Origin: a virus | IMG/VR virus record: IMGVR_UViG_3300023116_000275 | Location: 1 to 27,318 of that record | Direction: 5' to 3' (one strand) | Length of the DNA: 27,318 bases | Shown here: piece after piece, positions 551 to 25,087 of the stretch | How the letters are laid out: each line of letters begins with the position of its first letter | Position numbering within the stretch: the first letter of the stretch is position 1 | The notes under the pieces: generated by a model | The model's input: the letters and a program-made list of their open reading frames with translations, nothing else | The model's database searches: none | Told to the model about the DNA's origin: nothing | Position numbers and translations under genes: made by a program

Positions 551-558
551 TATTTATC
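551..558 (-). promoter_or_regulatory. variant T4-type late promoter for gp8-like gene
   Basis: Minus-strand octamer GATAAATA, one mismatch from the T4 late consensus TATAAATA. It overlaps the last codons of the giant upstream gene and ends 29 bases before the gp8-like ATG, a geometry close to that in front of gp25. Placement is suggestive; activity is inferred. Confidence 0.4.
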
Positions 559-3500: not shown

Positions 3501-6500
3501 CCAGAAAGTTTTGATATTATCTGATTGGAATTGTGAGTATCCTCTTCTGTTCCAACTACCGATCTATCAACATTAATTTGATTGAGTGATTTATTTACAG
3601 ATTTTACCAACACAATTTCATTATCAATTTCTAGTAAATCTCCAGACTTAATAAAGTCGATAGTATTTACTGATATATTTGTATCACCAATTCCAATAGA
3701 ACTTGAAGTTGCTATAGTATATCCAGATCCAACAAGTGGTGATTGGATAGATCCATTTATTGTTATAAGTAGTCTATTATTTGCATCAATAGATCTAATT
3801 CTATGACTAACTCCAGCACCAACTCCTACAATATCTACTCTATTTGGATTAAACTGTAAAGAATCTCCTATTGTTGCTGCAATACTTATTTTTTGATTAT
3901 CTTCCTTAATAATATAGAATCTGGAAGGTAATCTTGATGTTATTCCTATTCCTGGCCAGTTAATTGGGGATATTTGTATTCCATTGTTTGGATCTTCATT
4001 ATGTGGTATATATTCAACTTCTTCACCACTAACAAAATAATGATTCCCCAAGTTTATATTGTTTTGGGATATAAGCACCACATTAGAGTCTGTGCCATCA
4101 AATTCAACCTCAAATATTGGATTATTCTTTTCAAAAAGCCCAAATGATTTAGTGTTAGAATCAAACTGATCACTAATATCATCTATAGTTAAAACTCTGT
4201 TACCTATAAATTCCCTATACTCTGCCAAAAACGGTAAATTAAAAAGTATCTCATTAGATACAAGAGATTCATCTACTTTAATACTCTTTTCTCTGGCAAT
4301 ATCAAAATCTTTAACTGCATTAAGATTCACTGATTCTGTGAGATCTGATATTGCAACAACAACGTTATCATCTTGTTCTGTTGGCATTCTATAAAGATCA
4401 TTATCAGATGGTTCCAAAATCAGATCACTGAATTTTTTAAATCCAACAGTATGTGTTAAATTACTAACCAGAGGATTCCAAACAGTAAAATCTAATGGAG
4501 ATTTTACTGAATATGAAAAATATTGATAATAATCATTGTCAGACAATCTTTGGAAAAATGTATTTAACTTACCAGTTTCTTTTTTCCATCCCTCTCTAAC
4601 TATACTGCTTGAAGATACTTTGTAATCTCCTTCAGATCCAAAGGATGATGATATTAGTGCCAGATTTTTTGAAGATTGACCATAAATTATATCTCCAGGT
4701 GAGAATTTTTTATTGGTTCTAATTTTTATATACTCATTGTTCTGGTCATATCTTTCCACAACTCCAACATTGTCTTCATATATGACCAATTCATTTTCAT
4801 TAAATGAACCCTTTTCTAGGGTAATATCAAAGATTGGAAAATATGATTCTGGTGTTGCTGTACCAAAAGATTCAAATTCATCATAAACTCCTGGAGATTC
4901 ACCAACTTTAAGTACATCCGATATATTATATACAATAGAAGGAAACTCGCCACCAATGTTTGGATCTGATTGCTTAACTTTAAATAGAGAATATCCATAT
5001 GATGAAGAGTTATAACCCTTTCCGCCAATATTTAAATCAATATTAGTATTTTCAATGATTACATTATCACCAACATTAAATGGAAAGTCTGAAGCATTTG
5101 CAAAAGTAACCGCAAATGCGACTGTAACATCATTAGTAATGCTATCAAACGTAATATTACTAATTCTAATTCCATTTGGATTATTTACTGGTAGTATTTT
5201 TGGTGTAACATTGTATAGCCCAGTAGTATTTCTAATAATAGTTACTTCAGTATCTCCAATATCATATCTAAGTCTTGCTTCAGTATTAACTCTTCCAGTG
5301 AATCCATCAATAACAACTAATTGTGGAGGTACAAAGTAATTTGTACCGAAAGATGATATTTTTATCTTTTTGAATTTTGATAACGGTTCTATTTTATATG
5401 TGCTTGGGAAAATTGCAGATGGTCTTAATGTTTTATCTGAAGGATAGTCTAATCCAAGATTTAATAATTTTATACTATCTATCTTACCAATTGACTTTGA
5501 AAATGGTAAGAAAATAGCTCCAGAACCCTGTGAAGATACTACTTTAGTAACATAGGGTAAAGTTCTATAGTTTCTTCCTTTTGATACTAAAGAAACTTCT
5601 GCTATTGGACCAGTACCATAAATGGTTTTGTATGAAATTATTCCATCATTTTCACTATATGAAGATTGTTCTGGATCAGAGTCTAGTGGTATTATAAAAG
5701 ATGTGGAGGTTATTCCAGATATATTTGATTTACCTGAATATACACTATCAAGAATTTGTATTGAACTGGAGTTTTTTATATTACTAAAATCTACCTTTAA
5801 ATTTAACTTTGTTACTGGAGTATTTGGTAGATTGATAGGAGTTAACTTATAGTAAAGTGTTTTTGGAGTATCGGAGTCTATTTTTATTTGAACATAAGCT
5901 CCATCAGAACCAATGTCCCCAACATAAGTTACATTGAAAGTCTCTGTTTTATCTGAAGAAGAATAATACTTATTTGTGAAGTTAACATCAGTATAAAATT
6001 CAAATTTAAAAGATGGGTCTTCATTATATTGCAATGATCTATCAGATAGATCAAATATTATATTTTCATTTTTATAAAATTTCAATTCTGGATTTATAAG
6101 AGATATTGATCCATCTTGTTGAGATCCAATATTTACTAATATTGAAGAATCTAACTCAGATATATCGGAATAATAATTTGTAGATAGTGCAATCGTATTA
6201 GAATTTATACTTATAATATAATAAATTCCAGAATTTATTAGTCCGATTGATGGACTTTCTGAATTATAAATTACCTTATCTCCAGTTTTAAATTGGTGGT
6301 TATTAATGGATATTGTATTTAAATCAATATCTACATCAGAAGAACTAAATTCAGTTTTATTAACTAAGATTCTATAAACTAAATTATCATAAGATACTTT
6401 TATTGTTCTAGTTTTATTGCTGGACAAAGACAAATCTATTTCATTTCCAGCAACTAATCCATGAGGTGATTTTGTTATTATATTAGCATATTTTTTTACA

Positions 6501-9500
6501 ATGCTAGATTGAATGACATCATCCCTATTTGTTTTTAGTTTTTGATTATTTCCTACTCCATAATCATTATATTTAATCAATTCAAAAATAGATTCAGATC
6601 CAATACCAACATACTGGTTTGTAGATCCTATAGAAACTTTTTGTGTTGATAAACCAATATAATTATTAGAATAAGGTACAACGTATAAAGAATCAACATC
6701 AGTAAGATCTTTTGTTGTTGCTGCATAAGATACATTTATTGGAGTATCTGTATCATTTATTATATAAGATACTTCATCATTCAATATAAATTTATGATTT
6801 GGTAAAAATATTGTATTTGGTATAGTATCTTTTGTTTTTACAAGATCCAGTTCTGGAACATTTACATACAATAGTCCACTCTTACCCTCCGAACGTTGAA
6901 GGGTGGAAGCATAATTTTCGTAGTAAAGACTTAAATTTTCTCTCTCAACTTGAGCTCCCCAAATATAAAATGTTGGAGTTGAATTTAGGGTAAATCCTGC
7001 TGGACCGTAAGTACCAACTCTAAAATTGTGTGTCCCCGAAGAAGTAAGTTGCTTAAATGTATATCTTCTATACGTATTTGTTAAAGTTACTAATTGACCA
7101 TAATATAAAATTCCATCATCAACTATTAAATAGACAGATTCTCCTCCTTCTTCACCCTTCAAAAATACCGAGAATACATTTTCTTCATTCGACAAGCTTA
7201 CTCCATTATATCCATATAAGAAATAATCAGAGTTTCCTGTAGTATTTGCGATACTAATTTTAGCTGCTTCTTTTTTATTTTCTATAGGAGATTCTTGTAA
7301 ATAATCAATAGATCCAGTGATATTGGCATCATCTTCCCAAGGAGTTCCTGGTAACTGTGATGATGAAATTGGATAAGAATATTCTAATAAATTCTCAGAA
7401 TCTATTATAATAGATTCTTTAGGATTAAAATAATATTCAGAATTTGTATTGTATGATTTATCTGTAGATAATCCAGTATTAACTATTACTTTTCTTGGTA
7501 ATTCCTCAATAATATCACCAGAAGAATGTGTAGTAGAAATTGATCCAGCATAAGATCTTTCTATCTTTACAGTATAATTTTTACTGTAAATATTCAAAAT
7601 TTTAAACAATTCTTCATTTGATTTATATATATCACCAATAGATATTACAGATGTTAAGTCTCCATTGACTTTTAAATATGTGACTATGCCAGTTTGTGAA
7701 GAATTTTCTAAATCATTTAAAATAGTTAATCTATTACTCTTCTGAATTTCTAATGATTTGACAGGACCAATAAATTTTGTTGATATTATATTACAATTAT
7801 CAATAATTGGTATATCCTGGTTTGTTATATCTATAAAGTGACTAGAAATTCCTAAGTAATTACCATTAGTGTCTAATCTAGAATATTCAAAATCTGGATA
7901 AGTATCTTCACTAAATGTAATAGTACCTATTTCCCTACCACTAACCGATTTTACAATGGCAAAGGCATTACTTCCAAAAGTTCCTTCATTATTAAAATAA
8001 ATTTCATCGCCTGCCGCATAATTTTTACCACCTGAGATAATATCTAGTTTATCTACAGAACCAGAACTAGTATTAGTTATTTTTGGAAGTACATTTTTAA
8101 ATGTTTCTGGACTTACCAACCCATCATAGAATGTATTATCTTTAGAAAATCCAAAAGATGATGTAAATCTAAACCAATTATCACTATCTACAGATTTTCT
8201 AGATAAATTTGAAAAATCTTCAAAATTATATGGTATTGGTTTTGAATTAAAAGAATTTCCAATTACATAAGGAAATATTGGTTTTAAAAATCCATTATAT
8301 GGACCACTAGACTCTTTAGTGGGATTAAAAGTTGAAAAATATGCATATACTCCGTTTGGAAACTCTGGAGTTTTACAAAATCTTCCGTTATTAATATCCA
8401 AATCTCCAGCATTAGTAAATACATAATCCTCAATAAAATATCCAGTTGGAAAAATGCTTACTGGTGGTCTATTCTCCACTATTGGTCTTAATTCATATCC
8501 ACTACTCAACTGTTTAATGGCACCACCTTCAATATTTTCATATCCATATGGACCATATATTGGATTTCCATCATATGCCCATCCAACTATGGGAGAGTGA
8601 TATTTGATTGTATCCGAATCGTTAAGTAAATCTTGTTTAAATATTGGATTTCCTTCATTATCTAAGGATGATGCCAAACACTGCTCTCTAATTCCTCTTG
8701 GAGTAAATCCATGACCATAAGATAATTCTTTGGTAATATCTTTTGATTCATATATTATTCCATCATCATCATTTATTGATGATGTACTGAAAAGTTTTTC
8801 GACCAAATTTAAAGTCCAAGATTGGATATTGACATCAAAAGATACTCCAAATCCATTAGAAATTACTTCTATGAAAGTATCTTTCGTATATCCAAAACCT
8901 CCATTCAGAATAGTAACTGATTGTATTCTTCCATTAATTATAACAGGAGTTAAAATTGCATTAAATCCATCACCATAAATCTTGATCTCTGGGGCAGAGT
9001 TATAATTTGAGCCACCATCAATAACTGTTACTTCAATAATTCTTCCATCACTGGAAATAGTTGGTAATAATTTTGCATTTTCTCCATTGTATACATTAAT
9101 AGTTGGTTTTCTATTATAATTGACAATAGAATTATCACCATATCCACTACCAGGATTTTTTACTGAAGTTGAAAAAATTTCTCCAGTAAAGATAGGATTT
9201 AATTTTCCAGTAAATGTTTGACTACTAACAGTGTTTATTCCTATAGGAGCTTCAACTTTTACTATTATTGGTGTATATGATACTCTGTGTTGACCACTTC
9301 CAAAATCTGAAAATGGAATACTTAATTTATTGTTGTAATTAAAGTCTTTATCAAAATCTGTTTGAAGTACTTCATATACTTTAAATTCATCATCATTTAC
9401 TCTTCTTACAAAGTATTCTGATGTTGATGATAATCCTGTAGGAAGAACACCATCACTATTAAAAATTACTACTTCCTTATCTAAAAATCCGTGATTTTTT

Positions 9501-12259
9501 ATTTTAATTGTATCAAAATTCTTATTAATATTGTTTGAATTAAAATATAAAATTTTATTTGTATAGTTTTGTCCAGAATCCAAAACATCAACAGAAGATA
9601 TACTGTTTTTTGCAGTTACTGATGTAATTTTATGGATACCATCTCCATAAGATGAAAATGTTATGGTGTTTATTCCAGAAACAGATTCTTCAAAACTATT
9701 ATACAATTTTGCGGTTATTCCATCATTTGAAGTAATGTAATATATTGATCCATCTACTAATCCACCAATAGCATCTTGATTTAGAGTGTTATAAATAACA
9801 GCTTCATAATTTTTAAATCTATTGAACTTTTTAAAGTCTATAGTGCCAGTAGATAGATTTAATTGATTATATAAGTTAGATGCGTTGAACAACACTTCAT
9901 TCTTTTTACTGGATAAATTGCATTTTACTTTTGCACCAAAACCATTTCCACCACTAATGGTAACAATTGGTTCTGATTCATATCCAAATCCAGGATCGAT
10001 TACATCAACTCTTTTTAGACCACCTCTAACATTAGCAGTTACCAGAGCGTCTGTCCCAAATCCAGAAGAACCTCCTTCCCCAACATTATCTACAATTTCT
10101 ATTTTGGGTGGATTTATAACATCATAATTAGAATCTCCTGGAGAAGATACAATAACTTCTACAATTTTCCCATAAAAAACTGTATCGGTAGATTTATAAT
10201 TTAATAATTCTATTCCATTTAAAAAGCACCCAGTAGACCCAGGACTTGTAATTTTCTCAGTATCTAGTGCTTCATTTGTTGGAGAATTGTATTTTCTTAT
10301 TATGTCTTGTGGGTATAAAGTTTTATTATAAAATTTTGTAAATATAAGCTTATTATTAGTTGCCGTTCCAAATAGACTTAAGAAATTTTCGGATCTAATA
10401 TTTGATCTACTGGAAGCTAATTTTATAGTGCTATCATTAACTCTCTTTATAAAATATTGACCTTCTGGTATGTTAAGTCCAGAATTTCCATCATAAGTGT
10501 AATATATAGAATCACCACTAAGAAATGGATGATTTCCAATTATTAATTCTTCAGTTGGGACTGGTAATACCTTTGAAAATTTTATTGTTAGTGTATTATC
10601 ACCAACATCTCTTGATAGATAACTTGGTAATTGTGAAGAAGTTATATAAGTCTCATCTTTATCAATATAAACATTTTGAATGTTACTAGAAACTATATTT
10701 AAGTTGGAATTGAAAAGAAATTTTGGTTTAGAAATATTTCTTTTGATAGTATATTTTTTATTTGTATCCAAAGAAGCAGTAATATTGATATCAAAAACTC
10801 TTTTATTTGAAAAACTTATAACAAAATTAGAATACTCTTCTCCAGAACTACTGTTTAATGTAAATATATCTCCTGCTCTAAAAAGATTATCATCAAAAGT
10901 TTCTACTCTATATTGAGAAATCCCATTTAATTTTTCCGATACTTTAAATAAAGACTTAACATTATATGTTGGACCAACATTTAAAAACCAAGTATTGTGG
11001 ATTTGTTTTGTACTTTCTTTCCCTAATGCTGTAATATTAACATTGTCATCTTCCTCATAAAAATAACTTTCTTCTCTATCATAACTAATATCTCCAAGAA
11101 CACCCCTTACCCTTACTGTTATTATCTCATCATCATCATTGAATGAATATGCAAAATGATTATCTAATATATTAGTACCAGATTTTATATCCACTGGTAA
11201 AGTTAAGTTAAAAAATTGATTATCATTTTTTCCATTATATTCTACTTTAGTTAAAACACCATTATCATAAAACTCAATAAAACCAGAGTCATCAAATCCT
11301 AAAGTAGAATCTACATCCAAATATGTTTGTCCAGCAACTGCATTATCAGTAACTTTTGTTTTGGCATGAACAGAAAAATTGAAGAATTCTATATCTGGAT
11401 TATAGTCTAATGTTAATGAATAAAATTCTGCACCTTCACTAATAACAAGCTCTGATGTTATGATAGTAGCAAAAGCACTTTTCTCTACACCATTAACGTC
11501 TTCGAACAAGGTTCTACCAGCAAGATCCAGAGGATCTCCCTCATAAGGTTCAACAACAATTTTTCTTGTTACTCTAAAGTCAGCATCTGATGATTGAATT
11601 AGATAATCTCTTGGTTTTATTATTTTACTTTCTACACCCCATACAATATTGAATAATATTTCAAATGATTTATCAGTTCCCCTTGAAGAATAAAAATCCT
11701 TAATTCTAGATACTAATATTTTTTCATTTAATTCTTGATAAAAATCAATTTCTTCAAATCCTGGTGTGTATTGTGATTTGAATTTTTTATATAACTCAAA
11801 TAAAAATAGAGCATTTAAATTATATACAACAGTGTTTGCTGTATGATCTTTTTTAAATGAAGTGGAAAATTTGAAATCGTCTTTGGTATATCCAGTTATA
11901 CCACTAAATCCTCTTTTACAACCTAAAAATTCAGTCTTTGTTTTTTTATCATAAAATATAATTTCATCATCAATTTTAATTAAACCATTTTTAAAAGGAA
12001 ATCCATCAGTATTTGTAACACTAATTGACTTTGAATTTGCAACAATATTAGAAGATAATTCAGTGTAAAATACAAGTTCAGATATATTCTCTAGCTTTGT
12101 GTAATCATTAATATTATTGAGAATATTTGTTGGACCACCAGAGAACTCTAAAGACTTATAATAATCCTTTAAGAGTTGTATGAAGTCCGAATAAGACTCT
12201 TTTACGTAAGATGGTTGCTGATCTGTGACTAAATTTTGAATTTGTACTCTATTTTTCAT
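557..12259 (-). CDS. 7: giant gp7-position baseplate/virion protein with YHYH domain
   Basis: One uninterrupted frame of 3,900 codons, starting at the ATG just 4 bases after the gp6 stop. The N-terminal 250 residues (SYVKESYSDFIQLLKDYY; FYSSRGTDKSFEILFNIVWG) resemble cyanophage baseplate proteins at the gp7 locus. A YHYH-type domain is visible near residues 1210-1310 (HSPIVGWAYDGNPIYGPYGY). A lectin-like beta module lies at about 1630-1790 (FYIWGAQVE). Many segments carry the motif G-x-G-Y followed by P-x-I, for example DPGFGYESEPIVTI and NPGFGYTAAPEITI, implying repeated beta folds. T4 gp7 is only about 1,030 residues, so this is nearly four times longer. It probably acts as the wedge organiser plus peripheral appendage domains. 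Expression probably depends on the gp25 late promoter and coupling to gp6. The gp7 label rests mainly on gene order; the domains beyond the N-terminus have no T4 counterpart I can name. Confidence 0.8.
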   Translation of the reverse strand: MKNRVQIQNLVTDQQPSYVKESYSDFIQLLKDYYKSLEFSGGPTNILNNINDYTKLENISELVFYTELSSNIVANSKSISVTNTDGFPFKNGLIKIDDEIIFYDKKTKTEFLGCKRGFSGITGYTKDDFKFSTSFKKDHTANTVVYNLNALFLFELYKKFKSQYTPGFEEIDFYQELNEKILVSRIKDFYSSRGTDKSFEILFNIVWGVESKIIKPRDYLIQSSDADFRVTRKIVVEPYEGDPLDLAGRTLFEDVNGVEKSAFATIITSELVISEGAEFYSLTLDYNPDIEFFNFSVHAKTKVTDNAVAGQTYLDVDSTLGFDDSGFIEFYDNGVLTKVEYNGKNDNQFFNLTLPVDIKSGTNILDNHFAYSFNDDDEIITVRVRGVLGDISYDREESYFYEEDDNVNITALGKESTKQIHNTWFLNVGPTYNVKSLFKVSEKLNGISQYRVETFDDNLFRAGDIFTLNSSSGEEYSNFVISFSNKRVFDINITASLDTNKKYTIKRNISKPKFLFNSNLNIVSSNIQNVYIDKDETYITSSQLPSYLSRDVGDNTLTIKFSKVLPVPTEELIIGNHPFLSGDSIYYTYDGNSGLNIPEGQYFIKRVNDSTIKLASSRSNIRSENFLSLFGTATNNKLIFTKFYNKTLYPQDIIRKYNSPTNEALDTEKITSPGSTGCFLNGIELLNYKSTDTVFYGKIVEVIVSSPGDSNYDVINPPKIEIVDNVGEGGSSGFGTDALVTANVRGGLKRVDVIDPGFGYESEPIVTISGGNGFGAKVKCNLSSKKNEVLFNASNLYNQLNLSTGTIDFKKFNRFKNYEAVIYNTLNQDAIGGLVDGSIYYITSNDGITAKLYNSFEESVSGINTITFSSYGDGIHKITSVTAKNSISSVDVLDSGQNYTNKILYFNSNNINKNFDTIKIKNHGFLDKEVVIFNSDGVLPTGLSSTSEYFVRRVNDDEFKVYEVLQTDFDKDFNYNNKLSIPFSDFGSGQHRVSYTPIIVKVEAPIGINTVSSQTFTGKLNPIFTGEIFSTSVKNPGSGYGDNSIVNYNRKPTINVYNGENAKLLPTISSDGRIIEVTVIDGGSNYNSAPEIKIYGDGFNAILTPVIINGRIQSVTILNGGFGYTKDTFIEVISNGFGVSFDVNIQSWTLNLVEKLFSTSSINDDDGIIYESKDITKELSYGHGFTPRGIREQCLASSLDNEGNPIFKQDLLNDSDTIKYHSPIVGWAYDGNPIYGPYGYENIEGGAIKQLSSGYELRPIVENRPPVSIFPTGYFIEDYVFTNAGDLDINNGRFCKTPEFPNGVYAYFSTFNPTKESSGPYNGFLKPIFPYVIGNSFNSKPIPYNFEDFSNLSRKSVDSDNWFRFTSSFGFSKDNTFYDGLVSPETFKNVLPKITNTSSGSVDKLDIISGGKNYAAGDEIYFNNEGTFGSNAFAIVKSVSGREIGTITFSEDTYPDFEYSRLDTNGNYLGISSHFIDITNQDIPIIDNCNIISTKFIGPVKSLEIQKSNRLTILNDLENSSQTGIVTYLKVNGDLTSVISIGDIYKSNEELFKILNIYSKNYTVKIERSYAGSISTTHSSGDIIEELPRKVIVNTGLSTDKSYNTNSEYYFNPKESIIIDSENLLEYSYPISSSQLPGTPWEDDANITGSIDYLQESPIENKKEAAKISIANTTGNSDYFLYGYNGVSLSNEENVFSVFLKGEEGGESVYLIVDDGILYYGQLVTLTNTYRRYTFKQLTSSGTHNFRVGTYGPAGFTLNSTPTFYIWGAQVERENLSLYYENYASTLQRSEGKSGLLYVNVPELDLVKTKDTIPNTIFLPNHKFILNDEVSYIINDTDTPINVSYAATTKDLTDVDSLYVVPYSNNYIGLSTQKVSIGSTNQYVGIGSESIFELIKYNDYGVGNNQKLKTNRDDVIQSSIVKKYANIITKSPHGLVAGNEIDLSLSSNKTRTIKVSYDNLVYRILVNKTEFSSSDVDIDLNTISINNHQFKTGDKVIYNSESPSIGLINSGIYYIISINSNTIALSTNYYSDISELDSSILVNIGSQQDGSISLINPELKFYKNENIIFDLSDRSLQYNEDPSFKFEFYTDVNFTNKYYSSSDKTETFNVTYVGDIGSDGAYVQIKIDSDTPKTLYYKLTPINLPNTPVTKLNLKVDFSNIKNSSSIQILDSVYSGKSNISGITSTSFIIPLDSDPEQSSYSENDGIISYKTIYGTGPIAEVSLVSKGRNYRTLPYVTKVVSSQGSGAIFLPFSKSIGKIDSIKLLNLGLDYPSDKTLRPSAIFPSTYKIEPLSKFKKIKISSFGTNYFVPPQLVVIDGFTGRVNTEARLRYDIGDTEVTIIRNTTGLYNVTPKILPVNNPNGIRISNITFDSITNDVTVAFAVTFANASDFPFNVGDNVIIENTNIDLNIGGKGYNSSSYGYSLFKVKQSDPNIGGEFPSIVYNISDVLKVGESPGVYDEFESFGTATPESYFPIFDITLEKGSFNENELVIYEDNVGVVERYDQNNEYIKIRTNKKFSPGDIIYGQSSKNLALISSSFGSEGDYKVSSSSIVREGWKKETGKLNTFFQRLSDNDYYQYFSYSVKSPLDFTVWNPLVSNLTHTVGFKKFSDLILEPSDNDLYRMPTEQDDNVVVAISDLTESVNLNAVKDFDIAREKSIKVDESLVSNEILFNLPFLAEYREFIGNRVLTIDDISDQFDSNTKSFGLFEKNNPIFEVEFDGTDSNVVLISQNNINLGNHYFVSGEEVEYIPHNEDPNNGIQISPINWPGIGITSRLPSRFYIIKEDNQKISIAATIGDSLQFNPNRVDIVGVGAGVSHRIRSIDANNRLLITINGSIQSPLVGSGYTIATSSSIGIGDTNISVNTIDFIKSGDLLEIDNEIVLVKSVNKSLNQINVDRSVVGTEEDTHNSNQIISKLSGNFNIVGNNLNFSEAIWGKIPVGFGTTATSANEIDYTGLTTSSKFSGRVFLRSALNFLYTNDFDKAYDNNYVYDDITTQFNGISTTFNLSYGGNNITNIPYTNTILLIDGIFQGPQRISTPKYSIYGDYKLFVDGGNLKVGFNLNPTDPTITKDVNVNRLPKGGIIVSVGSTEGFGYQPLVSAGGTAIINPIGALTSVAIGNTGSGYRSGLQTVKVGLRTDSDTIVYFGEAVVNSGYVTSVNITNPPPAIYDQLNPPEVIFDAPLSYTNLPIIYSQGSSGIGTEATVDLVPSNDGTIRSFEIKNYGYGYNENDLLTVSIGGTVGIPTLTGISNFEHFELNVTEVFRSKFSGWNVGEFIVLDDISKYFNGIRRLFPLQIDGEDISFYAKTSSGISLQSNLLVFVNDVLQTPGEGYQFNGGSRIRFTEAPKGPLVGFSTVGDTVKILAYTGTSEIDVRLVRVLPSVKVGDNVQIFSDVDSNLTQEERLVVDVKSADTIITNNYANVGVVLDELYERPISWIKQEQDIIIDNSFIGKDRVYYEPIINPTTNILNSIAITSEHVYVFDTSLFNISREGIEPTEQRRIEIIPTDQLISAEAEVVLNTNGTIDSINVTNPGFGYTAAPEITIQKPFIDGSQATAFALMSGSSVNSVNVSYGGTNYYNGPIKTLSIYSQGSGFPPLFGGETIMTSAKLHTVTGVGRNATVDISVNSETSITSLTSINDKGVNYSVGDILELKVYDNVGLASSYRRWPLENSIKFIVNEIEPPPILIAPPWRNTEESIFVNYYGDYGVIVGFDTSRISESTNQYFLGLDLFIPMDSDLRKNGVYDVGITTGDYFNITHTVFGDPSGGRVSLPSGFTAQTGPLPDPVGISTIFTDMVVQCYDWSEKIVTIPSGISGLPVGITTTVKNVIVILSNLAPGQNPSNTGFNSVELFGNYVWGKVDLTRRLRAKPFTAFSENQSGIGTNPILRRKLPLKYDGYFV

Positions 12260-12263
12260 GTCT

Positions 12264-14171
12264 TTATATTCTTACTAAGTCTTCGTTTAAGTAACTAGAT
12301 GTAACTATATATCCTGATCCAGAAAGATCAGTTCCTGAACTGATAGTATCGTTTATTAAATTTACAGTTGAAGATGTTGTATCTAACTGTAGGTATAGGT
12401 CTTGTTTTCCTATAACATCATTTGATTCTGGAGTGGCTGATATTTCTATTATTTTATCTCCAGCAACATTTAATTTTGTGGTTGAGATTATGTTTAAGTA
12501 ATTTAAATTAATCTCACCAGTTTTATAATTTATATTTCCTACCTTATTCTTTACTACTACTGGACTATTTTTTGACTGCAATTGGAATATAAAGAGATCC
12601 CCATTAACATCATCTATAGGTTTATCTGCCAAATACACCACTCCAGATATGTCACTGACAGTAAATCCACTTGATTTTATGTTATAACCCGTTTTTCTTT
12701 TTATATAGAAAGAATTACCAAAGCAAATTTCATACTGTGTAGTTGTACCTTCAGATATTTTTAGATCTCTTCTAATTAAAATTTTTGTAATATTTGATGT
12801 TATTGATTCTGACGTATCATCAATCAACTTTAAAAATTTACTGTATTTGAATCTAGATCCATAACTATTTAATTCTTTAGATTTTGAATATAATTCTAAG
12901 TTATTCTGTATCTTGTCCTTAATCGTGTTAGCATAACCTCGATTTATATTATAATAAACTGAAGAATTGTATTCAATATAAAGATATTTTAAATCAATAA
13001 ATTCTGGTATGATTCCAGCAACCGAATATTTTTTTAATTTTTGTTTTAATGAGTCTTTTAGTAAATTTGATAGATAAGTTCCATTTCTAGGTTTTACAGT
13101 AATAAAGACTTTTCCATATTGTGGAGGATTTAGTTCTTCTCCACCAAAAACAGCAACTGATTCTGTTTCTGGATAAATTAAAGGAACTATAGTTTCATAA
13201 TCTGACGCTGTTACTGCCCTATTTTGACTTGCATATAATCTAGGAGCGAATTTTTTTATTGATGATATTGATTCTATGGGTGATCCATAGTCACTAAATT
13301 CTATTGTTGTTAATATAGGAACATCGATATTAAGAGGATTTCCATTATTATCTGTTAATATTCCATTAAATTCAAAAGATCTAACTCCATTAGCAAGTTC
13401 TCCTTTAGTCTTAATATAAGACACTATAATAAAGTTTTTATCTGAAAGAGCACTGCCAAATGTCCCATCACCAAATATTAATTCATACTTACTATCTTCA
13501 ATTTCATTGATAAAGAATACTTTATCTGAAGATTTTACATTTGTAATATTATCTGCAAATTTATAAATTATAGAATTGCTGCTAGTCTTGCTATCCCTTA
13601 CAGTTACTCTTATTGTATTTGTATCTATGTTATTATTGGATAATATAAATCTTTGATTCTTACTTAATGAATCTACAGTAAAAGTCTCCTCAATATAGTT
13701 ACCTTCAAAAATATCAACATCTTTAAATTCTGCTAATTTTCCAGATACTCTAGATCTAATATCATCTGGAATTGAATATACAAAACTATTTAAAAGTGAT
13801 CCATCAGATGAAGAAGCTATAATTCCTTTTTTTACAACAACTGAAATCGGATTCTGATCATATTCTGTTAAATCGACATAAAAAGATACCCTTGCTTTAG
13901 AGCACCTAACGGATCTTGGCAAATAACCAATATTTCTTGCAATAGATACTACGTTTTCTCTTAAAGTTGCTCCGTCTAAGAATACTTCATTAGTCAACAT
14001 ATTAGCATTGTAAGAGCTAATATATGTGTTGTATGCTAAAGTATCTAAAAGAACTCTAAAATTAGATCCTTCAAAATCATAATCCGTAAATCTACCATCA
14101 GCTCTTAAAAAACTTTTGATAGATTCACGTATATCATTGAAGTCTAGTGATGATACGTTAACTAATGACAT
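12264..14171 (-). CDS. 6: gp6 baseplate wedge subunit
   Basis: 635 residues, close to the roughly 660 of T4 gp6. The N-terminal part (DTLAYNTYISSYNANMLTNE, then ENVVSIARNIGYLPRS at about 72-87) and the central stretch RAVTASDYETIVPLIYP followed by PQYGKVFITVKP are typical of the gp6/Baseplate_J-like family. gp6 dimers form the continuous ring linking wedges in the T4 baseplate. The gp25 stop TAA is immediately followed by this ATG (zero-base gap), and the next gene starts 4 bases after its stop, so the three genes are evidently co-transcribed and probably translationally coupled. There is no independent Shine-Dalgarno sequence. Low GC matches its neighbours. Confidence 0.93.
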   Translation of the reverse strand: MSLVNVSSLDFNDIRESIKSFLRADGRFTDYDFEGSNFRVLLDTLAYNTYISSYNANMLTNEVFLDGATLRENVVSIARNIGYLPRSVRCSKARVSFYVDLTEYDQNPISVVVKKGIIASSSDGSLLNSFVYSIPDDIRSRVSGKLAEFKDVDIFEGNYIEETFTVDSLSKNQRFILSNNNIDTNTIRVTVRDSKTSSNSIIYKFADNITNVKSSDKVFFINEIEDSKYELIFGDGTFGSALSDKNFIIVSYIKTKGELANGVRSFEFNGILTDNNGNPLNIDVPILTTIEFSDYGSPIESISSIKKFAPRLYASQNRAVTASDYETIVPLIYPETESVAVFGGEELNPPQYGKVFITVKPRNGTYLSNLLKDSLKQKLKKYSVAGIIPEFIDLKYLYIEYNSSVYYNINRGYANTIKDKIQNNLELYSKSKELNSYGSRFKYSKFLKLIDDTSESITSNITKILIRRDLKISEGTTTQYEICFGNSFYIKRKTGYNIKSSGFTVSDISGVVYLADKPIDDVNGDLFIFQLQSKNSPVVVKNKVGNINYKTGEINLNYLNIISTTKLNVAGDKIIEISATPESNDVIGKQDLYLQLDTTSSTVNLINDTISSGTDLSGSGYIVTSSYLNEDLVRI

Positions 14172-14573
14172 TTATCTTGTGGGTAGTAATATGAATGATA
14201 ACTGCTGAGGAGAAGATTCAATGCCAACAATTAAATATTCTATATCCACATTTAGTTGGTTTAAATCATAATCTGGTATTACAACTACATCTAAAAGTTT
14301 TACTCTAGGTTCGTTATTTTTTATAACAACTTCAATTTCTCTTTTTACATCATTAACTAGATCTTGTGAAATATTCTCAAATAGTAAACGACTCAATAAA
14401 GACCCTATTTCTGGTTCAAAAAACTTCTCACCCTTTGATGTGAATACTAAATTTTTAATAGAGCGTGCTATCGCATCTTGATTTCTCAATACAACAATGT
14501 CTTTTGTTAAAGGATTTCTTTTGAGAGAAAGGCTTATATCCTTAAACCCAGAACTGACACGCTCTATTGGCAT
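14172..14573 (-). CDS. 25: gp25 baseplate wedge subunit (GPW/gp25 family)
   Basis: 133 residues, essentially the length of T4 gp25 (132). The signature stretch GEKFFEPEIGSLLSRLLFE (about residues 48-66) is the conserved core of the GPW/gp25 family, followed by the expected helix and the EPRVKLLDVVV strand. gp25 is a sheath-proximal wedge component that contacts gp6 and helps start sheath assembly. It heads the baseplate operon and has an exact T4-type late octamer upstream. The stop codon abuts the gp6 start, as in other compact T4-like wedge operons. Confidence 0.95.
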   Translation of the reverse strand: MPIERVSSGFKDISLSLKRNPLTKDIVVLRNQDAIARSIKNLVFTSKGEKFFEPEIGSLLSRLLFENISQDLVNDVKREIEVVIKNNEPRVKLLDVVVIPDYDLNQLNVDIEYLIVGIESSPQQLSFILLPTR

Positions 14574-14595
14574 TGTAGTAGGTATAGTTATGCTT

Positions 14596-14603
14596 TATTT
14601 ATA
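14596..14603 (-). promoter_or_regulatory. T4-type late promoter upstream of gp25
   Basis: Minus-strand octamer TATAAATA, an exact match to the T4 late promoter recognised through gp55/gp33-type factors. It lies 22 bases upstream of the gp25 ATG, so transcription would start about 11 bases downstream of it and give a short leader. No -35 element is expected for this class. Confidence 0.85.
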
Positions 14604-14612
14604 CCTATTTTT

Positions 14613-14876
14613 TTACCATTCATGTCCCCAAGTAGGTTCTGTGCCATATGACCAATCATCATAGTCATTATCGTTACGAATTTTCTCATGAACTTCATTT
14701 TGATGTTCAAAGTCATGCTTTTTTGGAGTGATATCATCTTCAACTATCTCTCTAAGCATTCTTTTTTCCGTATTTGATTGCAATTTTTTTGCTAATGAAC
14801 CATAATCTGTTATTAATGCTTCGGTTCCCCACATTTCCATCATGTATTCTTGATTACGATCTGCTGGTTGTCCCAT
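14613..14876 (-). CDS. small acidic protein of unknown function
   Basis: 87 residues, starting MGQPADRNQEYMMEMWGTEA and ending in an acidic, Trp-rich tail (DDWSYGTEPTWGHEW). A good Shine-Dalgarno sequence (AGGAG, 6 bases before the ATG) supports the start. The middle is charged and probably helical. No catalytic motif, signal peptide or membrane segment is visible. It sits between the late gp25 operon and a small-gene cassette, and the gp25 late promoter begins about 10 bases past its stop. A small virion-associated or assembly role is possible from position only. Confidence 0.7.
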   Translation of the reverse strand: MGQPADRNQEYMMEMWGTEALITDYGSLAKKLQSNTEKRMLREIVEDDITPKKHDFEHQNEVHEKIRNDNDYDDWSYGTEPTWGHEW

Positions 14877-14930
14877 TTTTGCTCCTGATTGTTTAGATCA
14901 GAACTTTTTACGGGGTTGCTATCCCGTGAT

Positions 14931-15434
14931 TTATGTCCAGTGATTGTTTGGTTGTTCCCACCAGTAATGCAAATCTTCTATATTATCATTATAGTATAGT
15001 GAAACCATATCACTTTGGAATTTACTATTGATATTTTCACATAATGCGACTGTATAATAGTTTTTTTCAGTATATTTTTTCATTATCTCTGTAATCCAGG
15101 TATAAGTTCCACCTTTAATTACACCTGCTTCTATCAAAACAAAGTTTTGCCAGTCTAAAACCCATTCAATATAGTTTAATTCAAAATTAATTTGATATTT
15201 TTTGGGGTCTTCGTCTGGAAATGGTACGTTTACCGCTTCAATATGAAAAATCTCCCGCCCCATTGACAATGAGTGCGAGAGATGTTGAGTCACAATACTT
15301 GAATAATCAGGAGAAACGCACAAGAAGCAAGTTTTACTTGGATGAATGTCCCAGTTGGACATTTTAATCTTATACGTTAACTCCTGAATCAGTGCTAATT
15401 CTTTGTCTTGAGATATAAATTTCAAATTTTTCAT
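14931..15434 (-). CDS. unknown protein, possibly a degenerate phosphoribosyltransferase fold
   Basis: 167 residues from the ATG at 15434. After an N-terminal helix there is a strand-loop segment (KTCFLCVSPDYSSIVTQHL). Near residues 94-112 comes QNFVLIEAGVIKGGTYTWI, which has the layout of the PRPP-binding loop of type I phosphoribosyltransferases (hydrophobic strand, two acidic residues, TGGT). Here the acidic pair is E-A and the loop reads IKGGTY, so at most the fold remains and catalysis is doubtful. This likeness was judged by eye and may be coincidental. The gene has its own possible late-type octamer upstream. No homologue with known function is recognised. Confidence 0.7.
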   Translation of the reverse strand: MKNLKFISQDKELALIQELTYKIKMSNWDIHPSKTCFLCVSPDYSSIVTQHLSHSLSMGREIFHIEAVNVPFPDEDPKKYQINFELNYIEWVLDWQNFVLIEAGVIKGGTYTWITEIMKKYTEKNYYTVALCENINSKFQSDMVSLYYNDNIEDLHYWWEQPNNHWT

Positions 15435-19075: not shown

Positions 19076-19284
19076 TACGGGTGCTTTTGCAACAAAGCGT
19101 AATGTTTAGAACGCGCTAGTGCAATTGTCCTTTTGATGTTTTCAATTGCGCGATAGTCGCTGATAGTTTTGGCGGTGACAATTTGCACCCCATTCTCATC
19201 ACGCCAGATGAGATGATTGGTTTGGCGATATAACGTGAAACCGTATGATTTCATCATCGCCTTTAACTTAGATTGTGTTTTCAT
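19075..19284 (-). CDS. HicA-like small protein without an antitoxin partner
   Basis: 69 residues from the ATG at 19284 (MKTQSKLKAMMKSYGFTLYR). An upstream in-frame start at 19305 would lie in the hairpin stem. The pattern 'KLKxxMKxYGFxxxRQTxHLIWRDENG ... ISDYRAIENIKRTI' resembles the dsRNA-binding-like fold of HicA/YcfA mRNA interferases: helix, strand with a conserved His (H24), strand, then a helix. In HicA the His within G-S-H acts in RNA cleavage; here the context is QTNH. No HicB-like gene is adjacent, so it may be a degenerate toxin, an RNA-binding protein or a counter to host toxin-antitoxin systems. The likeness was judged by eye. Confidence 0.65.
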   Translation of the reverse strand: MKTQSKLKAMMKSYGFTLYRQTNHLIWRDENGVQIVTAKTISDYRAIENIKRTIALARSKHYALLQKHP

Positions 19285-19295
19285 GATAAAGAATT

Positions 19296-19315
19296 GGGGG
19301 GGCAATTGCCCCCCC
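19296..19315. repeat. 20-bp perfect palindrome
   Basis: G7-CAATTG-C7-type perfect palindrome between the HicA-like gene and the gene at 19322. It is followed (minus strand) by CCAATTCT, shared with the 36-bp spacers. Confidence 0.75.
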
Positions 19316-19321
19316 TGTAGA

Positions 19322-19939
19322 TTAGATCAGACCTTTATGAATGCGGCGATAAGCGCACCACGTGATCGCTTGAACTTGCGATGCTAAGTGCATCTTACCT
19401 GTCACCTCAGAGATTAACTTAGCAGCGTCACGGTAAGCATCTTGAATCATACGGAAAGTCTTGTCTGACATAGCAGGAACCGCTTTCAAGTTAGAAACAC
19501 TTCCGTTCCAAATGTTGTAAGCGTGACCATCAATGCAGGGCGTGTCAGATTTCCCATCCTTTGCAATGCAATGATAGAAGGCAATTGTTTTGTTTCCCCG
19601 CAGAACTTTGCAGATCAACTCATCACTTTCTAGCATCAGTTCGATGATAGTGATTGCCTTATCTTTGTTTGCAGAGTATGAACAAACGCTCACACTTTCA
19701 AACGGGATTTCATAGCAATAGGCACGCAACATTGCCTCTGCATCTTCTACATTTCTCTCCCACTTATTGTTTGGAGAAAGTGCAGCGATCACACCTGCCA
19801 CAGTGTTAGGATTGAACCCATACTTTTCGCCCAAAGTGACACAAACGCTGTAGGCGTGGTGATACCACTGCGAACCTACTTCTCTGTCCAGAATGCTGCT
19901 CTGGAAATACATTGCAACGATCGAATCAGTGTGTGCCAT
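19322..19939 (-). CDS. phage protein with DNA-glycosylase-like (DUF7178-type) pattern
   Basis: 205 residues. Conserved-looking blocks: TVAGVIAALSPNNKWERN (46-63), YSANKDKA (88-95), CIDGHAYNIW (135-144) and a C-terminal helix QVQAITWCAYRR (188-199). The same order of blocks (VAGV-AALSP-W-N, N-K-A, D-H/R-A, Q-A-WR) occurs in a widespread phage family that I recall as DUF7178 and that has been likened to helix-hairpin-helix DNA glycosylases. The Asp of IDGHA would then be a candidate catalytic residue. It may remove modified or damaged bases from phage or host DNA, but this is inference. It begins the transcription unit ending at the 17135 terminator and has a promoter with a palindrome in its spacer. 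Confidence 0.75.
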   Translation of the reverse strand: MAHTDSIVAMYFQSSILDREVGSQWYHHAYSVCVTLGEKYGFNPNTVAGVIAALSPNNKWERNVEDAEAMLRAYCYEIPFESVSVCSYSANKDKAITIIELMLESDELICKVLRGNKTIAFYHCIAKDGKSDTPCIDGHAYNIWNGSVSNLKAVPAMSDKTFRMIQDAYRDAAKLISEVTGKMHLASQVQAITWCAYRRIHKGLI

Positions 19940-23199: not shown

Positions 23200-23373
23200 T
23201 CACCAATTCGTAGCGTCTAGTTCTTCAACATATGCACTCACGGTCTCATCACCCTCCAGTTGGAACACGTCATCATAATTGATTTGATGAGCATCAAAAT
23301 CGTCACGAACTTCGAATTCTAAAGTAACACGAACTTTGCGCTTTTGTGCTGCGTGGTAAACTGAAGATGCCAT
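23200..23373 (-). CDS. 57-residue unknown protein under a strong promoter
   Basis: Frame from the ATG at 23373: MASSVYHAAQKRKVRVTLEF, EVRDDFDAHQINYDDVFQLE, GDETVSAYVEELDATNW. A short basic N-terminus precedes a beta strand and an acidic helical part (EELDATNW). It stands alone between a strong promoter (TTGACG-17-TATAAT) and its own terminator. This suggests high, independently controlled expression, as for an early takeover protein. The start context AGGTTCTCATGGCA recurs at 26562. The family is not recognised. Confidence 0.75.
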   Translation of the reverse strand: MASSVYHAAQKRKVRVTLEFEVRDDFDAHQINYDDVFQLEGDETVSAYVEELDATNW

Positions 23374-23397
23374 GAGAACCTTTGTGCGAACAGTGAT

Positions 23398-23426
23398 ATT
23401 ATACTATGAGATTTAATATCCGTCAA
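23398..23426 (-). promoter_or_regulatory. strong sigma70-type promoter
   Basis: Minus strand: -35 TTGACG (23421-23426), 17-bp spacer, perfect -10 TATAAT (23398-23403). The best sigma70 match in the window, about 25 bases before the ATG at 23373. Confidence 0.85.
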
Positions 23427-23474
23427 CGCATGAACGTGACAATCACGATGATATTTAGAATGTTATAATGATCT

Positions 23475-23586
23475 TATGATTGATATTATGATGATTCGCA
23501 CACATCTCGTCGAGATTTATATGATTGATATATGATTGATGACGCACATCTCGTCGAGATTGTCAAGTGCGCGTCTCGTCGAGATT
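23475..23586. repeat. array of CTCGTCGAG palindromes in 44-45 bp direct repeats
   Basis: Three copies of [AG]TCTCGTCGAGATT at 23504-23517, 23548-23561 and 23573-23586 (centres 44 and 25 bp apart). The first two sit in longer direct repeats that begin TATGATTGATAT and continue through ATGAT/GATGA, CGCACA and the palindrome. The array lies upstream of the strong promoter at 23398 and next to the DnaA-box region. Confidence 0.85.
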
Positions 23587-23620
23587 TGTGAGACCCCTCA
23601 TATATTTTTCTTCGCGGTTC

Positions 23621-23649
23621 TTGTATTTTTTTCGCGGTTGTGCTATAAT
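23621..23649 (+). promoter_or_regulatory. plus-strand extended -10 promoter aimed at the DnaA boxes
   Basis: -35-like TTGTAT (23621-23626), 17-bp spacer, extended -10 TGCTATAAT (23641-23649). TTCGCGGTT occurs twice, 20 bp apart (23611 and 23631). No plus-strand gene follows, so any transcript would run into the box array as a non-coding RNA or primer. Confidence 0.6.
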
Positions 23650-23701
23650 ACGCGGTCCAAGATCACAAGAATCTAGAAGATTTATAAGAGATTTTAGATC
23701 A

Positions 23702-23709
23702 TATTTATA
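23702..23709 (-). promoter_or_regulatory. exact T4-type late octamer
   Basis: Minus strand TATAAATA, exact match, with one-mismatch relatives at 23679-23686 (TATAAATC) and 23808-23815 (TATAAATG). No minus-strand gene begins within 300 bases downstream, so it may drive a non-coding late transcript or be part of an AT-rich unwinding element. Confidence 0.5.
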
Positions 23710-23712
23710 ACA

Positions 23713-23764
23713 TTATCCACAGTAATTCATACCTTTTCCACAGAATACGCAGAGTTTTCCACAG
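23713..23764 (+). other. three DnaA-box-like repeats with 21-bp period (origin-like element)
   Basis: TTATCCACAG at 23713-23722, TTTTCCACAG at 23734-23743 and TTTTCCACAG at 23755-23764, all in the same orientation and exactly 21 bp apart (two helical turns). TTATCCACA is the classic bacterial DnaA box, and TTTTCCACA is, as I recall, the cyanobacterial form. The flanks are very AT-rich with ATTTATAA three times (near 23680, 23703 and 23809). No gene covers the region. This is the signature of a DnaA-binding or iteron-type origin element, though protein binding is untested. Confidence 0.7.
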
Positions 23765-23876
23765 TATGTCAGCAAAAGAACAAACAACACATATACATTT
23801 ATTTTAACATTTATAAGTTAAAAAAGCATTAAAAACAGGTAATTTCAGGTTAAATCTGCATATTATCAAATAGAAT

Positions 23877-24071
23877 TTAAAATCCCTTATTCTTCTTACT
23901 CACTGGTTCAATCACTTCAATATGACTTAACCATTTTGACTCAGTAATAAACCAATGATTCTGAGTATCCTCCCAGTTATCAAAAACAACTTTTTTTCCA
24001 TTCTGATGAATTACCACATAATGATGGCGATCATACGGAAGATGACTTGTTTGCTCAAATACTTTAGTCAT
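23877..24071 (-). CDS. 64-residue cyanophage protein
   Basis: Starts MTKVFEQTSHLPYDRHHYVV, continues IHQNGKKVVFDNWEDTQNHW, then FITESKWLSHIEVIEPVSKK. The pattern 'LPYDRxHxVVIxxNGxxxxFDxWEDTQxxWF ... xxHIEVIxxxxKGF' is one I recall from many cyanophages without known function. It is the last gene of its transcript, 5 bases after the fucosyltransferase-like gene stop, and lies next to the DnaA-box region. There is no clear terminator between it and that region; the AT-rich flank may serve. Confidence 0.75.
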   Translation of the reverse strand: MTKVFEQTSHLPYDRHHYVVIHQNGKKVVFDNWEDTQNHWFITESKWLSHIEVIEPVSKKNKGF

Positions 24072-24076
24072 AACAA

Positions 24077-25087
24077 TTAAACAGTTACAATGTTTGCCGA
24101 TGCAGTGCCAATCTTCAATGCAGTCTCAGAGAATGCAGAGATTGCTGGTGCAGTAATTGGTTTTAAGATTAAAATCTCTCTACAGTATAATAACACAAAC
24201 CAATCAAGCATTTGGTATAGCATCTTATACTTCTTTGGTTTCTTTAGAATCTCATCACCATAATATCTTACAAAAATTTCTTTCACCTCGTCTATTATAT
24301 CACGGCGCGTAACTACTCGTCCAGGTAGAACACTCTTCCAATATTTGAGATAATATTTTTCTGGTAAATCAGTAGAGACATAAAACACTGTATCATGAGA
24401 GTATTTCTTCATCTCTTGAAGATACACATCATCTGGTATATACTTCCATGTATCAGATGTTGACTTCCATGGACAATACTTTATAAAATCTTCCTTTTGA
24501 CTTGGAGTTAAATGATTTAAATCATCCTCTGTCCATTTGATACCATAATATCTTCTAACATGTACTCCAACATACTTCTTAAATACATTCTCTAAATCAA
24601 CACGAAGACCATCATAATGTAATGTAATTAATGATAATGGATTCTTTCCATAAGGATAATAACCTGTTCCTATTGGCGCACTGTTGATGAACATTAAATC
24701 ACTTAACTCATATGATGCAAATTCACGATTTAATAACCGATTAAACATTCCATTATCAACATGCCTAAAATGACCAATTCCAGTGAGGAACTTCTCTTTA
24801 CTCATAAAATATGTTTTGGGGAATTTTAAAAAATATGTCTCTGGATATTGATCTAAACAATAAACAATCTTATAATTCCATCCAGTAAATCGACCAATTA
24901 AAAATCCATGATGCCAAAAGTGTAAACGACTTCCAAATCCTGTATCTTGTATATCATTCTGATTATGAGATTCTAAATTGCTAAATGGTGAATTTTGACA
25001 ATTATAAAATGAATAATTAGGAATCTTCCATGCTTCTGGCATACCAGAGAATTGATATAACTCCATTAAAAATCGAATCTGTTTCAT
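24077..25087 (-). CDS. fucosyltransferase-like glycosyltransferase (GT23/NodZ-type pattern)
   Basis: 336 residues. KYVGVHVRRYYG (171-182) carries the H-x-R-R motif that binds GDP-fucose in alpha-1,6-fucosyltransferases and related GT-B enzymes. VFYVSTD (234-240) matches the following strand with the conserved Asp, and DWFVLLYCREI (295-305) with SAFSETA (317-323) matches the C-terminal D-x-x-x-L and S-x-F-x-x-x-A motifs. The N-terminal half is AT-rich in codons and unrecognised. The product may modify virion or host surface glycans, but acceptor and sugar are inferred. A terminator lies upstream at 25127, so its own promoter should be in the roughly 40 bases between, where I see none convincing; readthrough is possible. 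Confidence 0.72.
   Translation of the reverse strand: MKQIRFLMELYQFSGMPEAWKIPNYSFYNCQNSPFSNLESHNQNDIQDTGFGSRLHFWHHGFLIGRFTGWNYKIVYCLDQYPETYFLKFPKTYFMSKEKFLTGIGHFRHVDNGMFNRLLNREFASYELSDLMFINSAPIGTGYYPYGKNPLSLITLHYDGLRVDLENVFKKYVGVHVRRYYGIKWTEDDLNHLTPSQKEDFIKYCPWKSTSDTWKYIPDDVYLQEMKKYSHDTVFYVSTDLPEKYYLKYWKSVLPGRVVTRRDIIDEVKEIFVRYYGDEILKKPKKYKMLYQMLDWFVLLYCREILILKPITAPAISAFSETALKIGTASANIVTV

Follow-up and report, generated by a model that had tools for sequence, protein, structure and literature searches.

The window, that is, the whole 27,318-nt stretch of DNA analysed here, comes from a virus record belonging to a T4-like cyanophage, the gp6 of which is about 50% identical to Kyanoviridae baseplate wedge proteins. 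The region under study is the gap at 23374-23876, which holds no convincing gene and is flanked by two minus-strand genes, namely a 57-aa gene of unassigned function (23200-23373; phrog_12516), conserved beside the element in many Kyanoviridae, and, on the other flank, a 64-aa gene with a DUF7441 domain (23877-24071). Elsewhere in the window, a minus-strand protein of 336 aa (24077-25087), carried by only three near-identical contigs, was unmatched in the phage collection, Pfam and PHROGs, and a single minus-strand open frame of 3900 aa (557-12259), downstream of gp6 in the baseplate cluster, is unusually large for that place.

Three sequence matches to the DnaA box lie on the plus strand of the gap: box 1, TTATCCACA, at 23713-23721, box 2, TTTTCCACA, at 23734-23742, and box 3, again TTTTCCACA, at 23755-23763. 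An earlier reading of the letters alone (hereafter, the sequence-only reading) had reported three direct copies starting at 23713, 23734 and 23755 in steps of 21 bp, and both positions and spacing proved exact; the three ATTTATAA elements that it listed were located at 23680, 23703 and 23809. Its identification of TTTTCCACA as the cyanobacterial DnaA box agrees with the literature (PMC4674748; PMC3480399). Its description of the region as gene-free and AT-rich stands as regards genes, and as regards composition it applies to the stretch just downstream of the boxes (77-79% A+T at 23764-23876), whereas the surroundings of the boxes are ordinary (67% versus 65% for the whole window). No further boxes were found in the gap when up to two mismatches were allowed, and the DnaA-trio, seen as ACTACTACTACTA in host oriC, was absent from the stretch in which it was looked for (23600-23877). 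The three boxes are the only TTWTCCACA matches in the 27-kb window. Since 0.96 matches are expected by chance and three or more appeared in 7 of 100 shuffles of the window, the box count alone is unremarkable; the same cannot be said of the phased cluster.

The boxes are embedded among several other elements. Specifically, the 57-aa gene is preceded by a putative early sigma70-type promoter on the minus strand (TTGACG-17-TATAAT, 23398-23426), and relatives carry a TTGACA-17-TATAAT-like sequence at the same position. Next to it, between 23505 and 23584, lie three copies of the palindrome TCTCGTCGAGA (starts at 23505, 23549 and 23574), a possible operator present in some relatives only. In the form (T)CTCGTCGAGA this palindrome occurs six times in the window (20616, 20641, 21958, 23505, 23549 and 23574) and also upstream of the small gene in L131, S-SRM01 (L137) and L172-L174, and it looks like an operator for some regulator. 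On the plus strand, directed against the surrounding genes, a predicted host-type promoter follows at 23621-23649, with a weak -35 (TTGTAT), a 17-bp spacer and an extended -10, TGCTATAAT; a promoter profile from which the window's twin contig was withheld gave its best window match at 23628-23682 (E 4.8e-7). Just past the expected transcription start, the conserved sequence CCAAGATCACAAG occupies 23657-23669 (+).

On the opposite strand, a perfect match to the T4-type late promoter, TATAAATA, lies at 23702-23709 inside the middle ATTTATAA, 3 bp from box 1, and the other two ATTTATAA elements (23680 and 23809) match the late promoter at 7 of 8 positions on the minus strand. Beyond the boxes, a conserved AT-rich block beginning with AAACAACACATATACATTTATTTTAACATTTATAAGTTAAAAAA extends over 23782-23835 (+) and represents a candidate DNA unwinding element; the best window match of the AT-rich profile, from which the twin contig had likewise been excluded, maps to 23783-23825 (E 3.7e-4), so that the matches of the two profiles flank the boxes. 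This block is the least stable 50-bp stretch of the gap. As an unwinding element it is strong in three of six complete genomes and moderate in the others: in S-SM2, P-TIM68 and SynMITS9220M01 it ranks among the 0.02-0.03% least stable 50-bp stretches, and in the window and in DSL-LC03 it falls in the lowest 1.6-1.7%, which is moderate only. The antisense promoter, the conserved AT-rich block and the other-strand late promoters had gone unmentioned in the sequence-only reading, as had the exchangeability of the box module described below.

An Rfam search of the window returned no matches. Because a direct DNA similarity search of the region against phage records returned nothing, the neighbouring small protein was taken as an anchor, and relatives were gathered through the 57-aa protein; removal of near copies left 82 upstream regions (41.3 kb). 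Having been collected in this way, the set is blind to the boxes. TTTTCCACA is present in 44 copies, distributed over 24 of the 82 regions, and TTATCCACA in six, compared with a mean of 0.55 occurrences and a maximum of 15 for 400 letter permutations of the 9-mer, and boxes are 29 times denser in the upstream regions than elsewhere in these loci. Among exact pairs, the distance is 21 bp in 12 same-strand cases and 42 bp in five, and 33 bp in three inverted cases; if the partner may carry one mismatch, inverted arrangements at 13-14, 24 and 33-35 bp are also prominent. Spacing by whole helical turns, found across diverged loci, is not the product of drift. The earlier remark that such phasing is hard to obtain by chance is borne out by these blindly chosen relatives, in which boxes and 21-bp phasing are far above chance. 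Conservation, which the same reading had proposed as a check, is partial: phasing is kept where there are several boxes, and exact boxes are absent from 58 of the 82 regions.

The other parts of the element recur as well. The antisense promoter consensus, GGTCTTGACATTTCTGCGAGTTNGTGATAGACTGCTCGCTAAGATCACAAGACC, with a -35 consensus of TTGACA, was found in 52 of the 82 relatives, and the conserved AT-rich block reads AACAACGCATATACATTTAAAAAACCTTTTTTAATATAAAAAA among them. On the plus strand of the window, the order of the parts is conserved promoter, box module and conserved AT-rich block. In many relatives, an inverted repeat, GTGAT...ATCAC, spans the -10 and the start site of the element promoter and is a possible operator.

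Pairs of TTTTCCACA no more than 60 bp apart occur in 5 of 18 complete Kyanoviridae genomes, where 0.08 genomes are expected by chance, and in all five the close pairs are confined to one place, about 2-8 kb upstream of gene 25. Specifically, S-SM2 carries a pair at 58064 and 58085, P-TIM68 an inverted pair at 58194 and 58208, S-PM2 boxes at 19231, 19244 and 19256, Syn9 a pair at 52565 and 52589, and DSL-LC03 boxes at 80123 and 80148 together with five at 80507-80571. A binomial test on this location is partly circular, because the elements of Syn9 and S-PM2, recognised by eye, were found through their boxes; the phages found via the promoter profile (S-SM2, P-TIM68, DSL-LC03, S-SCSM1 and S-8S55) show the same picture. 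The promoter is oriented opposite to gene 25 in all 11 phages matched by the profile, and in the four whole genomes matched there is a single significant place per genome. Neither the promoter nor the AT-rich profile matched in Syn9, S-PM2, P-SSM2, P-SSM4, S-RSM4 or S-CAM7. Part order varies: S-PM2, Syn9 and DSL-LC03 have their boxes past the AT-rich block, and P-TIM68 has them on the opposite side of the promoter. No close box pair was found in T4, in the Pelagibacter phage HTVC008M or in phiM12, and in six complete genomes, whose genes lie mostly on one strand, GC skew showed no turn at the element.

Two of these genomes deserve a separate description. In DSL-LC03, a single 600-bp gap holds two box clusters on either side of the antisense promoter (L309:3124-3157 and 3508-3580, corresponding to 80123-80156 and 80507-80579), with three boxes, one of them degenerate, and five boxes, respectively, the second cluster being spaced at 12-18 bp. 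In S-PM2, annotated tRNA-Asn and tRNA-Leu genes overlap the DnaA boxes (19177-19333; L308:7178-7334); ARAGORN predicts no tRNA in this stretch, so the annotation looks misplaced. A laboratory deletion of S-PM2 removed 5,799-15,339 (PMC4503421), and it is uninformative on essentiality because the element, at 19.2 kb, was spared.

The box pair was also considered as a specific marker in its own right and was rejected, as TTWTCCACAG-N11-TTWTCCACAG is found in over 120 viral contigs of diverse kinds, with the cyanophage promoter motif alongside it in about three among the matches listed. The contigs with 21-bp box pairs are L003-L122, notably L009, L013, L015, L036, L044, L049, L055, L073, L099 and L118. 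About 10 contigs have a more extensive array in common (box offsets 0, 21, 32 and 54), some of them with inverted boxes upstream. Phages may make wider use of host DnaA than thought.

Relatives without boxes often retain the promoter and the AT-rich block, with a different sequence between them. The commonest alternative module consists of 11-bp repeats (AGTAACTCCGA, AGACACCCCAG and ATACACCACTA), and the related sequences give an autocorrelation peak at lag 11. The exchange is evident on comparing L285, without boxes, and L305, with boxes: their AT-rich blocks are 99% identical, versus 49% for the modules. When mapped onto the small-gene tree, box presence is scattered like shuffled labels, with 21 changes for 23 carriers, a rough count because the gene is short and near copies were removed, and at least five changes are forced by well-supported branches. 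Alternation of a DnaA module with 11-bp iterons is the pattern that would be expected for initiator-binding sites. We tentatively propose one main origin with a T4-type promoter and unwinding element and an exchangeable initiator module, either host DnaA boxes or other iterons, swapped among close relatives like plasmid incompatibility types; on balance, we hold this full scheme to be somewhat less than an even prospect.

By comparing the element with known origins, several partial likenesses appear. In their minimal form, T4 oriF and oriG combine a promoter with an A+T-rich unwinding element (DUE) downstream of it, and their transcript forms an R-loop that primes leading-strand synthesis, until late transcription and UvsW shut them off (PMC3016281). 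Like T4 oriF (uvsY) and oriG (34), the cyanophage element has a promoter and a candidate AT-rich DUE, both conserved and here flanking the boxes; unlike them, it has a host-type promoter, with DnaA boxes or iterons placed between the two parts, and would be expected to have no MotA box, cyanophages being devoid of motA and of the MotA system (PMC2984593). Cyanophage early genes are thought to be transcribed by the host sigma70 polymerase, and the late promoters read NATAAATA (PMC2984593). Synteny with oriF through uvsY was considered and rejected, given that uvsY lies at least 36 kb from gene 25 in 17 of 17 genomes; the element is near gene 25 yet not beside uvsY, in which it differs from oriF. 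T4 oriE contains evenly spaced 12-nt iterons, kept at a syntenic place among related phages (PMC3016281). Evenly spaced direct repeats and retention of a syntenic place are shared with the cyanophage element, in which, unlike in oriE, relatives swap modules and one module type has host DnaA boxes as its repeats.

As to the host, cyanobacterial DnaA bound two neighbouring boxes rather than a single box (PMC4674748). The stretch upstream of dnaN in one Prochlorococcus genome contains three TTTTCCACA and one TTATCCACA, including two boxes with a 21-bp offset. In the corresponding stretch of two high-similarity Prochlorococcus genomes and one Cyanobium there are only boxes with one mismatch, so that support for the host consensus comes from the literature and from a single genome. 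The phage element shows oriC-type features, namely a regularly spaced cluster of host-type DnaA boxes and an adjacent AT-rich element, just as in cyanobacterial oriC TTTTCCACA boxes adjoin AT-rich DNA, with 21-bp offsets in that one Prochlorococcus genome. Unlike oriC, it has neither dnaN nor a DnaA-trio, it has an antisense promoter, and it belongs to a lytic phage with its own replisome. The iteron plasmid origins F, P1 and R6K also use DnaA, with DnaA boxes adjoining an AT-rich region; the phage element shares this arrangement and the exchangeable iterons, but a plasmid-type Rep gene was not seen beside it. DnaA titration sites of the datA type are clusters of strong DnaA boxes, as is the phage module, which differs in having few sites, linked to a promoter and to an AT-rich block.

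We consider it an evenly balanced call that this region serves T4-like cyanophages (Kyanoviridae) as an origin-like element, present in a single copy and acting in cis, and would give about the same credence to its being a replication origin that recruits host DnaA, in which a T4-type start is joined to DnaA. What the sequences show is the boxes and their phasing, the promoter-like and AT-rich parts, their conservation, the fixed genome place and the modular exchange; DnaA binding to the boxes, RNA priming and replication start at the element are inferred. In this scheme, unmodified host RNA polymerase would transcribe early from 23621-23649, against the neighbouring genes, with the antisense RNA expected to start near AAGATCAC and to pass the box module before entering the AT-rich block (23782-23835). 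RNA and easily opened DNA would then give an R-loop or bubble at which the phage replisome could start, as at T4 oriF and oriG. The module of the source phage would present three host-type DnaA boxes on one helix face, and the bound host DnaA might help to open the AT-rich block or time initiation; later, the other-strand late promoters could shut the element down. Counting against an origin are the missing GC-skew turn, the 58 of 82 regions without an exact box, the variable part order, the missing DnaA-trio, the weak -35 of the window promoter and the moderate AT-rich block of the window and DSL-LC03.

The main rival is a DnaA-controlled antisense promoter, which would look similar and which we regard as possible, if rather unlikely. 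DnaA bound downstream of the promoter would block or tune either a non-coding antisense RNA or the divergent early gene, making phage gene expression follow the host cell cycle with no replication start. The boxes indeed lie just downstream of the conserved promoter, in a roadblock position, early and late promoters are crowded in the region, antisense transcription has been reported in Kyanoviridae (PMC10976474) and GC skew does not mark an origin; such a switch, however, leaves unexplained the conserved AT-rich block beyond the boxes, the boxes past that block in S-PM2, Syn9 and DSL-LC03 and the alternation with an iteron module. It is doubtful that another protein, phage-encoded or a different host factor, binds the sites and happens to prefer TTTTCCACA: DnaA binding to the boxes is a prediction and the 11-bp iterons of the alternative module are without a known binder, but the 9-mer is the DnaA consensus of the host group, and 44 copies of TTTTCCACA versus six of TTATCCACA point to the cyanobacterial rather than the E. 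coli form.

The sequence-only reading had offered three roles, a phage origin, a DnaA sponge or the timing of expression; an element aimed at host DnaA, and an origin among these, is favoured, and a pure sponge is not. A sponge would titrate host DnaA as phage copies rise and thereby block new rounds of host replication, and exact, strong, host-type boxes, with two to eight sites multiplied by a high phage copy number, would suit that task. It fits poorly, and we judge it improbable, because the sites are few, confined to a single place per genome rather than spread, and tied to a promoter; in addition, the conserved AT-rich block accompanies the boxes and close relatives exchange the module for another iteron type. 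An origin or transcription-coupled control is preferred over a sponge because the boxes cluster at one place per genome, beside the antisense promoter and the AT-rich block. Chance, or simple-sequence drift in an AT-rich gap, could be entertained for the window alone, given the 7 of 100 shuffles with three matches; it is contradicted by the box counts of the relatives (44 versus 0.55 expected, plus the 21-bp phasing) and by the clustering of pairs in whole genomes (one syntenic place in five diverged genomes versus 0.08 genomes expected), and is extremely unlikely.

As for where T4-like cyanophages begin replication, all that we found in the open-access literature is the prediction of a single theta origin for Syn9, in a review that does not give its place (PMC2984593), and no open-access paper linking cyanophage genomes with DnaA boxes was found. 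Exact loci are now given in the cultured phages S-SM2, S-PM2, Syn9, P-TIM68 and DSL-LC03. If the proposed module swapping is true, the trading of initiator modules among close relatives would be a previously undescribed form of phage variation. In conclusion, a control element at one conserved spot, which often holds evenly spaced host start signals, suggests that T4-like cyanophages enlist host DnaA in starting or timing their DNA replication. If the element is indeed an origin, phages thought to be self-sufficient in replication would depend on, or listen to, the host initiator, and infection would be tied to the host cell cycle.
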